DNA of 61,881 nucleotides from Paludibacter sp. (GTDB lineage: Bacteria; Bacteroidota; Bacteroidia; Bacteroidales; Paludibacteraceae). Of this stretch, positions 48,260 to 53,548 are shown one piece after another. The translations under genes were made by a program, and so were the position numbers. The DNA lies in NCBI GenBank assembly GCA_017882285.1, contig JADGPS010000007.1, forward strand, positions 1 to 61,881, given 5' to 3'. The stretch's first letter is position 1. Each line of letters opens with the position of its first letter. The notes below the pieces were generated by a model. That model searched no databases. It was given only the letters and a program-made list of their open reading frames with translations, and was not told where the DNA came from.

Positions 48260-48682
48260 TTATTTCTTTTTTGCTCCTTTAGCGGGTGCACCTTTAGCGG
48301 TTGCAGCTCCTGCTTTTGGACGTTTTGCTCCATATTTCGAGCGACGTTGCGTGCGGCCGGTAACGCCGGCTGTATCGAGTGTTCCACGAACCACATGATA
48401 ACGTACTCCCGGAAGGTCTTTTACACGTCCACCACGAACCATTACGATAGAGTGTTCCTGTAAGTTATGTCCTTCGCCCGGTATGTATGCATTCACTTCT
48501 TTTTGGTTAGTTAAACGCACACGAGCTACTTTACGCATAGCCGAGTTCGGTTTTTTTGGAGTGGTAGTGTACACACGAACACAAACACCGCGACGTTGTG
48601 GACATGAATCCAGCGCCGGCGACTTGCTTTTGTCAATGAGTTCTGCTCTTCCTTTTCTAACTAATTGCTGAATTGTAGGCAT
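48260..48682 (-). CDS. rpsL: 30S ribosomal protein S12
   Basis: 140 residues; [32 protein letters not shown] and [17 protein letters not shown], with the lysines (KK of TTPKKP, K of GRVKDLPG) whose changes give streptomycin resistance elsewhere; here wild-type. The tail is Ala/Gly/Lys rich. First gene of the cluster, with a promoter 70-100 nt upstream. Confidence 0.97.
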
Positions 48683-49012
48683 TTTACTTTGTTTTTTATA
48701 ACTTTAACTGCTTTATTTTTATCCTGTTGGATTTTCTCCAAAATGGGTTGCAAAGATAGATATAATATTTTAATTGGCAATACACCTAATGAAAATATTT
48801 TTATTTCTGTTGTAAAACATAGTTTGGACGCGGGTTTTAGACTGCACAAAGTCGTTTTCCACTCATTGGTTTTTTGCTTCTTTCACTCGCGATAGGTATT
48901 CACCGCGTTCGTGATATTTGTTGCAATATATTCTTGCATATTGGTTCTAAAAGTTCCCCACAAGTCTTTAAACCTGCCGGGAATCTTTCAGAATTGCAAA
49001 ATAAACCAACTG
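48683..49012. other. 330-bp region upstream of rpsL
   Basis: Holds the rpsL promoter and, near 48950-48991, a segment similar to 54973-55014 (CACAAGTCTTTAAACCTGCC against TACAAGTCTTTCAACCTGCC). No gene seen. Confidence 0.6.
48751..48780 (-). promoter_or_regulatory. Bacteroidetes-type promoter for the ribosomal cluster
   Basis: On the minus strand TTG (48778-48780), 19-nt spacer, TATCTTTG (48751-48758). Start would be near 48744, giving a leader of about 60 nt before the rpsL ATG. Confidence 0.7.
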
Positions 49013-49645
49013 TCAGGTAAGTGGAACGAATACCGAGTTCGATGCTTTTTTCCCATCTGCCGAAGTTACAAAAGCATACACAAACTCAATGTTTTCCTTT
49101 GCCACGGAGGGAACGGTCAGAACAAGCTGACATTCCGGTTCTGTACCACGAGGTTGTTTGGCAAAATACAACGCTCCGTTTCCGGTTCTGCAAAGCACAG
49201 TGATCTGGTCATCGGATGCTGCATTCATTCCATAACCAAAGCACGATTCACAATCAAGCGAAATTCCATCAGCAGTAACAGTTGCCGAAAGGACATTTAC
49301 ACCCGGCAAACTTCCCTTGGAAATCTGCAACAGGCTGTAATCAATTACCGGCACTTCTCCCGAGCTATCAATGGCATTGGGCAGATTCAACGACATAAAA
49401 TAATTGTACGGAGACTGTTTTTCGGGACGCACCGGAAATCCGATATTAATAAACCCGCCTATCGACTGGTACACGTCCGAAATAAGTTTAAAACCGGCCC
49501 GTTGGGCTTTTTGTAAATCGGAGTTCATGTTTTTACGAATGAACGCCTTGGAACTAACCACATTCTGTCCTTTGTGAACATACGTGTTTACATTAGCAAA
49601 CGATTTCCTCATTTGACCCATGATGGGATTTTGAACAATACTCAT
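49013..49645 (-). CDS. DUF6266 family protein
   Basis: 210 residues from the ATG at 49645, where the family start MSIVQNPIMGQMRKSFANVN lies; an in-frame start 22 codons upstream is not typical. The pattern NVNTYVHKGQNVVSSKAF, QRAGFKLISDVYQSIGGFIN and FPVRPEKQSPYNYFMSLN matches this Bacteroidetes family. The second half looks like a beta-sandwich. Function unknown; no signal peptide is obvious. Upstream lies a 90-bp repeat shared with 51880-51969. Confidence 0.75.
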   Translation of the reverse strand: MSIVQNPIMGQMRKSFANVNTYVHKGQNVVSSKAFIRKNMNSDLQKAQRAGFKLISDVYQSIGGFINIGFPVRPEKQSPYNYFMSLNLPNAIDSSGEVPVIDYSLLQISKGSLPGVNVLSATVTADGISLDCESCFGYGMNAASDDQITVLCRTGNGALYFAKQPRGTEPECQLVLTVPSVAKENIEFVYAFVTSADGKKASNSVFVPLT

Positions 49646-49750
49646 AATATATTGGGCCTTCCTCATACCCGGATAGCAACATCGCTTCCTTCGTTGATTC
49701 AGACGATGCAAAACTACGGCATCTCCAAAATTTGCTTGTACAACTTGTAA

Positions 49751-49840
49751 TACAACTTGTATAAGAAAGTTTGTAATTCATTGATTTAGTGAAAGATAAA
49801 AACGGGTGATTTCGGGGTGAATTTGGAGAAAGATTGTATG
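49751..49840. repeat. 90-bp direct repeat, left copy
   Basis: TACAACTTGTATAAGAAAGT... to ...TATG; about 85-88% identical by eye to 51880-51969, with CTCCAAA before both. Together they flank the DUF488 cassette. Confidence 0.8.
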
Positions 49841-49924
49841 AATTAGATTTTATGATGAAGGGTTAATTCATAAATAAAGGCTTCACTGAATCAATGAAGT
49901 TTAAAATTAATAGTATGTTCTATC

Positions 49925-50740
49925 TCAAAAAAGTTCTAATTGCGAAATATGTTTCGGATGGAAAGTGCCAATAATCAAGAAAGGGTTTTTCCCTCTAAAA
50001 TGGTGGACTTGGGTTGTTCCCATAAAGAAATATAAATCCTTTGTTTGAGCGAAATTATCAAGATACTTCTTGCGGACATCTTCGCAGGCTTTTTGTTCAT
50101 TGCCTTTCCAACGATGCAAACTATTCCAGTAAAGTTGTCCAGTCTCCCAGTCTTCTATCATCGTTTTGCTTTGTTTCCCTTCTTCATCTTGATAAATAAA
50201 GCTGAATTTATAGGGTAACTTTTTCATTACCTCAAACTGCTTTTCATCTGCACTCTGAAATAAATTAAATTGTTTGAACTGAGCCAGTTTATCTCTTGTC
50301 CATGCTCTGTCTACTTCCTCCCATATAAAATCTATTACTTTGGTGGGTTTAAATACAGCAAGTGAGGTACAAATGGTTTTATTTTTTGCTTCTGCAATTA
50401 ATTCCGCCATATTTGTATAAACCTTATTCAAAACATATTTACGACGTTCCAACCAGGCATCACCATCGGGGTCAATTTTACCGAGTACCCGAATGGGCTG
50501 ATCGTGCGAAACTGGCCTGTAGCTTTCGGGGCGTGAATCTGACGTATTTTTCACCAAATCAAGTTCAATCCATTCATATTTGGCGTACTGTTCATGGTAT
50601 GCTTTTTTACGAAATTGAATAGGATATATGCGCACCCAACTACCATCCTCCCTGAAACCGGCTGTACAAACAAGTTCTTCGTACTTTTTGGAAATAGCCG
50701 GATAAGTTTTCACGGTAATGAGAACTTTGGTTAGTGCCAT
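49925..50740 (-). CDS. Uncharacterised partner of the DUF488 fusion, C-terminal QLELF
   Basis: 271 residues with no signal peptide or membrane span. N-terminal part has LITVKTYPAISKKYEELVCTAG, FREDGSWVRIYPIQFRKK and YEWIELDLVKNTSDSRPES; a conserved-looking middle has WEEVDRAWTRDKLAQFKQFNLF, and the C-terminal part has FFMGTTQVHHFRGKNPFLIIG. The last five residues QLELF match the beta sliding-clamp-binding pentapeptide (QLxLF). I do not recognise a named family. The start lies 1 nt after the stop of the DUF488 gene, so it is translated as a pair with it. A DNA-associated or RNA-associated role is inferred only from the tail and context. Confidence 0.7.
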   Translation of the reverse strand: MALTKVLITVKTYPAISKKYEELVCTAGFREDGSWVRIYPIQFRKKAYHEQYAKYEWIELDLVKNTSDSRPESYRPVSHDQPIRVLGKIDPDGDAWLERRKYVLNKVYTNMAELIAEAKNKTICTSLAVFKPTKVIDFIWEEVDRAWTRDKLAQFKQFNLFQSADEKQFEVMKKLPYKFSFIYQDEEGKQSKTMIEDWETGQLYWNSLHRWKGNEQKACEDVRKKYLDNFAQTKDLYFFMGTTQVHHFRGKNPFLIIGTFHPKHISQLELF

Positions 50741-50741
50741 A

Positions 50742-51626
50742 TCAGATATGTTTTAGTTCATACTTAAAGCCGGGGAGGTTTACAATAGCATCAGCCAAAT
50801 GTTTGCGGTGGCATTGGCATATATTGGCTTCGAAACAAGTCAAAGCTATTCGTTTTTTATCTTTCAACAGTTTCAATAATTTTTCCTGACTAACCAACAC
50901 AGGTGGTAACACTTCCTTGCGGTAGAGAGTAAACAATCTGTCATAATCTGCCTGAGAGTTTAATTCCTGTCGTTTGTCTGACTCTATCCCCAATTCCGGT
51001 AGATGTATATAGCTGATACCGACTCCTTCGCAAGCATTTTGAAGTTGCGATTTGCTAAAACCGAATTTCATGCTGAGCGAGTTTTTGCGCACGTCGCACA
51101 GCACTTTTACATCGTTGCGAATAAGCTTATTCAGATATTCTTCCAGACTGATGCCTTCGTATCCAATAGTAAATAAAATCGTTTTGTTGTTTACTGGTTT
51201 GCTGTCAGTAACGCGACGATATTCATCGGCGCTTAAGCGCTCTTTAGCTATAATGCTGTTCAGTGCGTAATACGGAAATTGGATATAGGTAAGCTTTATT
51301 AATTCATCAGTACTCAGTTTACCATAAAGGTTTTTTGCATACAAAATAGCCTTGCGATCCCGTTCTTTCAATTTGGGCATATAACTGACAGTATCTGTTT
51401 TTACCCATGTTTTACCTTCTTCTATTACCTGATTGTACTTGGTCATAGTATGTAAATCGGCGTTAGCCTGAAACGAATAACAACCATACTTGTATGGCAC
51501 AAAATAAAAATCGGCTTTCTCCTGCTGCTTGCTTACAAGCATAAGCAACTTCTGCAAACTTATTTTATCCAGTTTGTTTTCAAAGGTTTCCAACAACGCT
51601 AATAATATTTTTCGACGGTAATACAT
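50742..51626 (-). CDS. SocA/Panacea-like domain fused to DUF488
   Basis: 294 residues. Residues 1-140 resemble an antitoxin SocA/DUF4065-like fold (RRKILLALLETF, ISLQKLLMLVSK, FYFVPYKYGCYSF), a weak match by eye. Residues 150-290 are a clear DUF488: TIGYEG (153-158), CDVR (177-180), FGFSKSQLQNACEGVGISYIHLPELG and C264-E266 with CQCHR (270-274). The function of DUF488 is not established; conserved Cys, Asp and His suggest catalysis or metal binding. TACTTTTG, a -7 match, lies just 5 nt upstream (51631-51638), which would make the mRNA nearly leaderless. First gene of a two-gene unit between direct repeats. Confidence 0.7.
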   Translation of the reverse strand: MYYRRKILLALLETFENKLDKISLQKLLMLVSKQQEKADFYFVPYKYGCYSFQANADLHTMTKYNQVIEEGKTWVKTDTVSYMPKLKERDRKAILYAKNLYGKLSTDELIKLTYIQFPYYALNSIIAKERLSADEYRRVTDSKPVNNKTILFTIGYEGISLEEYLNKLIRNDVKVLCDVRKNSLSMKFGFSKSQLQNACEGVGISYIHLPELGIESDKRQELNSQADYDRLFTLYRKEVLPPVLVSQEKLLKLLKDKKRIALTCFEANICQCHRKHLADAIVNLPGFKYELKHI

Positions 51627-52050
51627 GGGGCAAAAGTACGAAAAAAATCAATTAAACTGGTTTATTACTTAATCTTTTCCCATTTTCTCTTCCAAGAACT
51701 AAACCTCTTTCTTCTGAAAAAATAAAATTATTCTACTTTCCTAAAGTTGCATTTAACACTTGGATTCAAGAAATAATAAAGCTATTCTCTGATAATTCTA
51801 CTTACTTGGATTATATTCAAAAGCTCAACTTTATCATTAATACTTTCTATTATAGAATTTAGGTGAAATGTACTCCAAATACAACTTGTATAAGAAAGTT
51901 TTTAATTCGCTGATTTATTGAAAGATAAAAAAGGGTGATTTTGAGGTGAAAAGTGAGAAAGGATGTATGTTGTCGTGATTATTTCAGGTCTCCGATGTAA
52001 GTCATGCCCCAACTATTCATAGATGCAGCCATCCGATGAATAAAATGCAG
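51627..52050. other. 424-bp gap before the DUF488 cassette
   Basis: Contains the possible -7 element at 51631-51638, AT-rich sequence with no gene, and the right copy of the 90-bp repeat. The segment 51650-51875 has no similarity by eye to the other repeat's surroundings. Confidence 0.6.
51880..51969. repeat. 90-bp direct repeat, right copy
   Basis: Same orientation and length as 49751-49840. Differences are scattered substitutions; similarity stops on both sides except for CTCCAAA just before. Confidence 0.8.
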
Positions 52051-52575
52051 TTATTCTTCATCATCATCATCAAAAAAATCATTCATCCAATCCGGATTAA
52101 AATCGCCGTCCGATTCATCCGGCTCATCAAACGGACTAACTCCTGGTGGATTAAACAACCCCCAACGATCTGCAATATAGTTCGTCTTATCGAAACCCGT
52201 CACCCAGTCAATAAATAACAGACGGTATTCTTCAATCCTATCGCGCACCATTTGATAATAGTCGGTGTGCTCAAAACCAAAGTCCCGAAGCGAGTGGATA
52301 TGCAATTTCAGACTCATAGCCGATTTTCGGATAATGGCGACATTCTCCATGCGGATATCGTACAAATCACCTCCTTCGGCAGCTGCTATTTTAGCCGTAA
52401 GCATATACACATCTTCCAGCATCAATTTTTTTGTCCAACCGAGATGCTCATTTTCATCGTCAATCAGATCGGCAATGGTACGCACCAAATCCAGTATCTC
52501 ACGCCCTTTGAGGTAAAGCGGCATTTTCTCCAACTTATCGTGGGTGTTTTCGTAGTCGTTGTATTCGGGGAACAT
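52051..52575 (-). CDS. Conserved hypothetical with acidic C terminus
   Basis: 174 residues, cytosolic and mostly helical; MFPEYNDYENTHDKLEKMPL, KGREILDLVRTIADLI, YDIRMENVAIIRKSA and RDRIEEYRLLFIDWVTGFD. RWGLFNPPGVSPFD and a run of aspartates close it. I recognise it as a Bacteroidetes conserved protein without a known role. It follows the DUF6155 gene by 5 nt. A truncated copy of its first 19 codons is at 53215-53274. Confidence 0.75.
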   Translation of the reverse strand: MFPEYNDYENTHDKLEKMPLYLKGREILDLVRTIADLIDDENEHLGWTKKLMLEDVYMLTAKIAAAEGGDLYDIRMENVAIIRKSAMSLKLHIHSLRDFGFEHTDYYQMVRDRIEEYRLLFIDWVTGFDKTNYIADRWGLFNPPGVSPFDEPDESDGDFNPDWMNDFFDDDDEE

Positions 52576-52580
52576 AAGAA

Positions 52581-53102
52581 TTAATCGTTGTAGTATTGAT
52601 AATAAATGTCGGAAATATCATCTGCAAATCCATACCCGCAAACCGAAGCCCATTTCAAACAATCCACACAACGAAGCTTAAATGCATCTAATAAATTATT
52701 TTTGTCCATATATTGCAATGCGGCTTTAAAGTTATTGTAAGCGCTGTTGTAATATTGTTCCGACATATCGCCATAATTGTAAGTAAACTGACAGGCCATT
52801 TCGGGCAAAGTAAGCATTAAGTCGGCTAATAATTCGGATGCAGGTTTTAATGCACGAAAATCGGCTATAGCTTTTTTAGCAACCGAAAAGCGTGTCTTTG
52901 GATCGAAATATTTTCCTTTTGGATAAAACTCATTGACAATAACGGTTCTATATTTCTCAAACATTTCTTTTTCGTTCGGATTTAGAAAAAATTCAAGATA
53001 TTCCTTTACAGGCTTCATATTATCGTACATTTCAAGTACGGTTTCAATCATTTGCTCTTTAGTGAGCGATTGAAGGTGTTTTTTTAAGGCTGATTTGGAC
53101 AT
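52581..53102 (-). CDS. DUF6155 family protein
   Basis: 173 residues; SKSALKKHLQSLTKEQMIETVLEMYD, VKEYLEFFLNPNEKEMFEKYR, RFSVAKKAIADFRAL and YGFADDISDIYYQYY fit DUF6155. Helical, cytosolic, function unknown. First gene of a pair with the 174-residue protein. Confidence 0.8.
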   Translation of the reverse strand: MSKSALKKHLQSLTKEQMIETVLEMYDNMKPVKEYLEFFLNPNEKEMFEKYRTVIVNEFYPKGKYFDPKTRFSVAKKAIADFRALKPASELLADLMLTLPEMACQFTYNYGDMSEQYYNSAYNNFKAALQYMDKNNLLDAFKLRCVDCLKWASVCGYGFADDISDIYYQYYND

Positions 53103-53183
53103 ACTATATTGGTTTGATTTTTATACTTATATATTTGCATTGATAAAAATGAACGAACATTTTTTACGTATTTCAATAATGCG

Positions 53184-53214
53184 GACCTAACAGGTTTCCA
53201 AAACCTGTTAGGTC
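53184..53214. repeat. Perfect palindrome ending the truncated gene copy
   Basis: GACCTAACAGGTTT (53184-53197) and its exact reverse complement (53201-53214) with CCA between. A sequence of this type is a familiar dispersed palindrome in Bacteroidetes genomes. It touches the stop codon of the truncated copy at 53215. Confidence 0.8.
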
Positions 53215-53274
53215 TTATGTTATTTTCTCCAACTTATCCTGAGTGTTGTCGTAGTCGTTGTATTCGGGGAACAT
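53215..53274 (-). pseudogene. Truncated 5' copy of the 174-residue gene
   Basis: ATG at 53274 gives MFPEYNDYDNTQDKLEKIT then TAA. Positions 1-17 match the intact protein at 52575 except D for E at 9 and Q for H at 12. The copy ends exactly at the palindrome. Confidence 0.85.
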
Positions 53275-53287
53275 ATTTAGTCGTTCC

Positions 53288-53548
53288 TTATAAAGTCATT
53301 TTCAAGCAGCAAAGCATACTACATTCTCTGGGAAAAGTATTTGTAAAATGAAATAAAAAACCTTTTTCTTTAGCTTTTCCATCTTTTTCTTCATATTCCA
53401 AGCAGTTGCAGCTTCCAGACTTTCGATGGAAGTGATAAACTATTGTATTTGTCCAACGCAATGACCCGACTTCGTCTATTGCTGGAAATTCACTCAGAAG
53501 GTATTTTTGTTCAATAACGAAACAGTGATTAATTCCGCATATAGTTCT
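53288..53548 (-). pseudogene. 86-codon open frame without a start, remnant gene
   Basis: In frame directly after the endonuclease stop runs an 86-codon stretch ending with TAA at 53288, cysteine-rich: IVYHFHRKSGSCNCLEYEE, GFLFHFTNTFPREC. There is no ATG, GTG or TTG in the first codons and it follows a T9SS tail, so it is not part of the nuclease. It ends 13 nt before the truncated gene copy. Looks like the 3' part of a lost gene; family not recognised. Confidence 0.45.

Follow-up and report, generated by a model that had tools for sequence, protein, structure and literature searches.

Introduction

DUF488 is said to have been placed by Burroughs, Nicastro and Aravind in 2025 in a RapZ-C-DUF488-DUF4326 clade of the rhodanese-phosphatase superfamily, for which DNA-end processing in conflict systems was reportedly predicted. 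In archaea, a ParB-CTPase fold fused to DUF488 and a helix-turn-helix (HTH) domain has been described, with CTP binding reported (PMC12704722). The PADLOC defense candidates (PDCs) come from guilt-by-embedding and most of them still await validation, and the passages of the article that deal with them leave PDC-M19 unnamed (PMC12988326). Literature searches, with supplements outside their reach, found no paper that gives PDC-M19 by name and no published mechanism for it. The present analysis concerns two adjacent genes, A and B, of Paludibacter sp. contig JADGPS010000007.1, within a stretch of 61,881 nucleotides (nt), here called the window, to which all coordinates refer. By its full-length matches, the pair is a member of this catalogued putative defense system, which is a computed candidate. 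The explanation regarded as best, held tentatively and at somewhat less than even confidence, is that in this PDC-M19 member protein B would bind single-stranded DNA and the sliding clamp, bring the DUF488 enzyme there and block foreign replication. Family membership, gene linkage, architecture swaps, a fold prediction for B, motif conservation and some restriction-modification neighbors were all obtained by computation. New here are the predicted reading of B as an oligonucleotide/oligosaccharide-binding (OB) fold protein, its clamp-like motifs, and the apparent ParB, HTH and stand-alone architectures of the DUF488 partner.

Family membership and protein A

Protein A matches the PADLOC model PDC-M19A with E 1.2e-125 over its full length (residues 1-294 of 294), and B matches PDC-M19B with E 2.8e-124, also over its full length (residues 1-271). 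The tight two-gene pair of the original prediction was borne out: both genes are on the minus strand with 1 nt between them. A had been taken for a fusion of a SocA/DUF4065-like domain to DUF488, and of this the DUF488 part stands. PF04343 matches with E 2.6e-24 and 86.6 bits, which passes the curated cut-off of 22.2, and the CxE...CHR residues of this domain show no variation across a 66-sequence alignment. The SocA part fell: SocA/Panacea (PF13274) was tried as the N-terminus of A and gave no Pfam match to E 1, and an hhalign comparison against seven Panacea-family proteins reached a probability of 18% over 41 columns. In sequence, the N-terminus resembles part of DarG instead of SocA, with E 5.3e-5 to the PADLOC DarG model (residues 3-92) and E 6.2e-4 to the NCBIfam one (residues 12-94), the latter at 19.1 bits, far under the model cut-off of 250. 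Pfam shows no ParB match in window A. A sequence-profile search of A against solved structures, to E 1, gives three weak matches, DarG among them at 0.22. The AlphaFold2 model of A has a predicted local distance difference test score (pLDDT) of 97.0 and a predicted template modeling score (pTM) of 0.93. The same genome shows two more DUF488 stretches in tandem (C24:22103-23127; L024, L029), with no B match there, and the first of them contains one in-frame TGA.

Fold and clamp-like peptides of protein B

B shows no family match in Pfam and NCBIfam to E 1, and no match to solved structures by sequence-profile search to E 10. Its AlphaFold2 model, made from 62 sequences, has a pLDDT of 93.4 and a pTM of 0.90. 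The best matches of this model in the PDB by Foldseek are Teb1 AB (E 6.5e-5), CST, a murine DNA-binding protein and p202 HIN domains, and RPA, and further matches are SSB, POT1 and RecO at E 0.05-0.1. B is predicted from this model to consist of OB folds, likest those of tandem-OB DNA-binding proteins such as Teb1 and CST.

The consensus of beta-clamp-binding peptides is QL[SD]LF. A clamp-like tail had been noticed on the 271-amino-acid (aa) protein, and it holds up as a conserved motif: QLELF ends the protein and the pattern Q..[LIM]F is kept there in 96 of 131 aligned sequences (window B and 130 others), with a second such peptide inside B (Table 1). Both aligned places show the pattern in 84/131 sequences. 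Any Q..[LIM]F is found in 121 of the 130 B sequences versus 8.9% of composition shuffles, and two or more are found in 82/130 versus 0.4% of shuffles. Calothrix B contains QLDLF and Fischerella B contains QLSLF. The commonest internal form is QLNLF (27 sequences), a string that also occurs in a paper on UmuC and the clamp (PMC3716654). Confidence of the B model drops at both motifs, with mean pLDDT of 77 for residues 151-160 and 73 for residues 161-170, and, near the C-terminus, a mean of 81 for residues 261-270 and a value of 62 for residue 271. By alignment and model, B appears to carry a conserved peptide of the Q..LF type at both places, each time where the chain is exposed or flexible.

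Distribution and linkage of the pair

In a survey of 60 genomes (59 relatives and the own genome), some match to A is found in 15 and some match to B in 11. Full-length A is present in nine of the 59 other relatives, so the pair is patchy and is not a fixed core gene of these relatives. Intact B adjoins A in six of the nine (G003, G007, G009, G024, G027 and G055). The other three differ: in G042 A and B are separated by a 423-aa open reading frame (ORF), transposase-like by eye, and the B match starts at residue 10; in G034 B is broken and in G026 it was not found, and A is open in both. Window B is 78% identical to B of a Bacteroidales metagenome-assembled genome (MAG) and 76% to that of a Sporocytophaga MAG, and, within its own genus, 42-64% identical where the B match is long, a 62-residue relic in G013 reaching 76%. 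Window B is closer to other taxa than to its own genus, which indicates horizontal spread. Patchy presence in relatives and horizontal spread speak against a host DNA-repair or nucleic-acid maintenance pair with no defense role, a reading to which the OB-fold prediction and clamp-like motifs of B, and the presence of DUF488 in genomes without B, would lend themselves, and which is considered improbable.

PDC-M19 is a widespread candidate: a scan of genome contigs confirmed at least 533 relatives of B. The best 80 loci were kept and analyzed, and nearly all of them are Bacteroidota by name, with two Bacillota or Bacilli; L184 and L196 look like the G042 and G003 contigs. The two genes are neighbors across genomes, as the original prediction would have it. 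Of the 80 kept loci, 79 have A, whole or partial, upstream of B and co-directional with it, and in the remaining one B starts 24 nt from the contig start. The gap between A and B ranges from -4 to +9 nt in 75 of these 79 loci, and is -28, 49, 353 and 1805 nt in the others. L178 shows one stop in A with B intact, and L201 shows A in two pieces.

These broken loci bear on an alternative in which the pair is a toxin-antitoxin-like abortive module, where A, with a DarG-like neutralizing domain, would restrain B or another target, or B would restrain A. The partial similarity of A to DarG, the tight operon and the listing of the pair among the PADLOC defense candidates all fit such a module. Against it, A is open where B is broken (G034), where B is separated and lacks its first nine residues (G042) and where B was not found (G026), which makes A by itself no obvious lethal toxin. 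The reverse is also seen, in L178 and L201. B looks, from its model, like an OB-fold binding protein and has no catalytic family match in Pfam or NCBIfam, and the order is convergent in 23 viral loci, which is reportedly unusual for such pairs. A toxin-antitoxin-like module is accordingly judged unlikely.

Partner domains in viruses, plasmids and archaea

Among 71 loci with B on viral contigs, several of them on one contig, a DUF488 lies within 300 nt of B in 63: 30 show a fused DUF488 protein upstream and co-directional, 10 show a stand-alone DUF488 upstream and co-directional, and 23 show a convergent DUF488. One B-DUF488 stretch of a viral contig has no DNA match in E. coli genomes. B and DUF488 are convergent on plasmids of Burkholderia, Rhizobium and Pseudomonas. 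A Streptomyces plasmid contains a convergent DUF488 protein beside B whose N-terminus is, by eye, XRE-type HTH-like, and two cyanobacterial plasmids show a short DUF488 after B. Next to B, a Saccharolobus shibatae and a Haloquadratum walsbyi plasmid encode a protein that is annotated as ParB family and has DUF488 at its C-terminus (L347 2939-5355 and L349 3980-6170). Thus B and DUF488 are the constant part across bacteria, phages and some archaea, and the partner domain varies: DarG-like, HTH, ParB or none. Sulfolobales have one more small gene after B, which by eye resembles PD-(D/E)XK. Two viral contigs (L355 3959-5715 and L356 4001-5831) show very distant B-like proteins (E 3e-10 and 4e-7), and by eye the gene after each of them is ParB-like.

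In Gordonia phages B follows an annotated immunity repressor, and a matching viral contig (L305) has a convergent DUF488 after B. In Gordonia phage Eviarto (L245 5021-9089) B is located about 1.2 kb from an annotated integrase, and this place near repressor and integrase suggests a link to lysogeny or superinfection. On a Pseudochrobactrum plasmid the pair is near a LexA-family regulator and RecT. Such settings would also suit a module that serves the fitness of mobile elements and not host defense, by guarding the DNA ends or forks of a plasmid or phage or by keeping rival elements out: conjugative plasmids of Rhizobium, Burkholderia and Pseudomonas carry the pair, as do archaeal plasmids, and it stands beside the repressor and near the integrase of the Gordonia phages, and near the LexA-family regulator and RecT. 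Yet copies on bacterial genome contigs also adjoin restriction-modification genes, and defense genes too are typically carried on mobile elements. This alternative is possible, if rather on the doubtful side.

Neighboring genes

The neighbor set contains up to two ORFs on each side of the pair at the 80 genome loci, that is 238 proteins of 120-1300 aa in two batches of 119, and the control set contains 119 of the 121 ORFs of 20 arbitrary 8-kb windows of relatives. At E <= 1e-10 the two neighbor batches match 199 and 173 PADLOC families versus 10 for the controls; these families are redundant, so the figures count families and not proteins. Models of type I, IIG and II restriction-modification stand on top of the 25 families listed for each neighbor batch, and none of the ten control families (mad, RtcR-like, GlgB, AriA, NsnB, HEC-01A) is named restriction-modification. 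With six phmmer queries taken from these same loci, a restriction-modification ORF is found in 11/80 genome loci, 5/74 viral loci and 0/40 control loci, the control covering 377 kb versus 983 kb for the genome loci. Restriction-modification genes are near the pair in a minority of loci and in none of the control windows. L160 shows the order methyltransferase, specificity subunit, PDC-S19, A, B, and in G024, from the same genus, the ORF directly after B has 1113 aa and is HsdR-like by eye.

Proposed mode of action

The fold, the motifs and the linkage of the pair lead us to propose that B would attach to single-stranded DNA and to the clamp and take DUF488 to that place; binding to both, a complex of A and B, catalysis and an anti-phage effect are what we infer. 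B would be a small OB-fold protein resembling replication protein A. It would occupy single-stranded DNA where replication forks or recombination intermediates expose it, and would dock on the host beta sliding clamp via its two short peptides. There B would bring or license protein A, which, through its CxE...CHR site, might modify or process DNA ends or a nucleotide, and this action would keep phage or other foreign DNA from replicating. The DarG-like domain of A, replaced by HTH or ParB or absent elsewhere, may tune targeting or silence the enzyme. A bolder version sees in PDC-M19 an undescribed immune principle of bacteria, phages and archaea, in which an RPA-like OB-fold sensor riding the sliding clamp would deliver a DUF488 enzyme to single-stranded DNA at the forks of invading replicons, with exchangeable DarG-like, HTH or ParB CTPase domains; it is speculative and held to be doubtful.

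Several observations weigh against this proposal. The TM-scores of B to PDB structures by its own length are <=0.32 among the matches listed, so the claim is limited to OB folds at the level of the domain and does not extend to a shared domain arrangement, and ribosomal small-subunit chains also appear further down the Foldseek list. A bare search for Q..[LIM]F also matches 65 of 82 A proteins, where it probably falls in the conserved helix LQKLLF, and the pattern by itself is therefore weak. Four archaeal B proteins were compared with the PCNA-interacting-peptide (PIP) box: the Natronococcus C-terminus, QPGLDSF, is PIP-box-like, two Sulfolobales proteins show a degenerate version (NVKLDDFI and NVSFDKFI), and Haloquadratum B keeps the bacterial-like QAKLF, so that with these mixed motifs the expected change to a PCNA motif is not clean. 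Eight of the 71 viral loci were counted without DUF488, in three of which (L243, L260 and L295, on one contig) A was found by tblastn, and no DUF488 was found in the 8-9 kb around B of Sulfolobus pSOG2 and of the Natronococcus plasmid. Restriction-modification neighbors are in the minority (the 11 genome loci above, found with queries from those loci), and in the window itself the pair is not flanked by known defense genes, its neighbors being rpsL, a DUF6266 gene, a 174-aa ORF, DUF6155 and a gene for endonuclease I.

Predicted OB folds, two clamp-like peptides and the domain exchange around DUF488 make PDC-M19 directly testable, and they raise the questions of whether B binds single-stranded DNA and DnaN and of what the DUF488 site does to DNA or nucleotides. 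The chemistry at stake is that of a domain that occurs in bacteria and archaea alike.

Direct repeats and insertion site

Two direct repeats of 90 nt had been described around the pair and read as the borders of a mobile unit. Their existence and same orientation are confirmed; their size is 92 nt, and the copies have diverged (86% identical). They form the longest direct-repeat family in 48500-53500. With copy 2 as query, the own genome shows both copies (E 4.6e-58 and 1.2e-24) and, beyond these, five short stretches (16-29 nt) of partial similarity, so the repeat is well above chance and not dispersed. A segment of 37 nt at 49740-49776, running into copy 1, recurs in 5/60 genomes (E <= 0.001): in G009 and G014 it precedes DUF6266 genes, and it is also found at sites without a recognized DUF6266 gene. 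G009 shows the order A-B-DUF6266 again, with a 75% similar element before DUF6266. From this recurrence and the G009 element, the simplest reading is that copy 1 would be the upstream region of the DUF6266 gene and copy 2 an old partial duplicate. The reading of the repeats as borders of a mobile unit is not supported, since copy 1 overlaps a promoter-like region of which 37 nt recur upstream of DUF6266 genes elsewhere.

That a small transposable unit carries the pair, with the repeats as its ends or target duplications, is very improbable. The repeats do bracket the pair, and no other full copy was found in the own genome, as such a unit might show; against this, no recombinase is found between them, where the only sizeable ORFs are A and B, copy 1 overlaps the region upstream of DUF6266, the left part of this copy is found again at places that lack the pair, and G009, with A-B-DUF6266 and the similar element, shows no second copy by similarity search of that contig.

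A TACAAGTTGTA-rich promoter-like element (window 49700-49776; L047, L113, L044) recurs in several genomes: it precedes DUF6266 genes and, in one case, an ORF that is HsdR-like by eye. The 174-aa ORF beside the pair (52051-52575) has no Pfam match. By a 54-nt direct repeat, 94% identical, at 52523-52576 and 53222-53275, part of the start of this ORF has a duplicate upstream of the DUF6155 gene.

A match to rpsL is present in 55/60 genomes, and its upstream regions were compared in 20 relatives, three of these pieces being <3.4 kb. None of the 20 shows a match to the pair, DUF6266, the 174-aa ORF or DUF6155, so the site is variable; one matches the endonuclease-I protein in part, at its sorting-domain end. 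The right-hand neighbor gene is present in 10/60 genomes, the own genome included.

Table 1. Position of the features of the PDC-M19 locus in the window.
Feature	Position	Strand	Basis
Gene A (PDC-M19A), DarG-like N-terminal domain and DUF488, 294 aa	50742..51626	-	Family matches and AlphaFold2
DarG-like domain of A, residues 3-94, against DarG model positions 163-262	51345..51620	-	PADLOC and NCBIfam DarG
DUF488 domain of A, residues 161-280	50787..51146	-	PF04343, E 2.6e-24
C264-x-E266 and C272-H273-R274 in DUF488 of A, putative active site	50805..50837	-	Invariance
Gene B (PDC-M19B), predicted OB-fold protein, 271 aa	49925..50740	-	PADLOC, AlphaFold2 and Foldseek
Internal clamp-motif-like peptide QFNLF of B, residues 157-161	50258..50272	-	Q..[LIM]F kept in 110/131
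C-terminal clamp-motif-like peptide QLELF of B, residues 267-271	49928..49942	-	Q..[LIM]F kept in 96/131
Direct repeat copy 1, overlapping the promoter-like region upstream of the DUF6266 gene	49749..49840	+	Repeat search
Direct repeat copy 2, about 250 nt upstream of the A start	51878..51969	+	Repeat search
Flanking DUF6266 gene, probably outside the module	49013..49711	-	PF19781, E 4.2e-16

Comparison with known systems

With the RapZ-C-DUF488-DUF4326 clade, as it is reportedly defined, the pair shares the DUF488 of A and its conserved CxE...CHR site. DarTG is similar in that the N-terminus of A resembles part of DarG, and differs in that A matches only positions 163-262 of DarG and has a DUF488 instead, and in that B shows no DarT model match. 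Membership of the pair in DarTG, which takes a DarG macrodomain and a DarT partner, was rejected on the 19.1 bits against a cut-off of 250 and on this lack of a DarT match in B. The archaeal ParB-CTPase proteins have a parallel on two archaeal plasmids, where a ParB-annotated protein with a C-terminal DUF488 adjoins B; in contrast, window A has no ParB match in Pfam, and the passages that describe those proteins mention no B-like neighbor (PMC12704722). The tandem-OB single-stranded DNA binders Teb1/RPA, CST and SSB are the best Foldseek matches of the B model, from which B differs by its low TM-scores by own length, its clamp-like peptides and its DUF488 partner.

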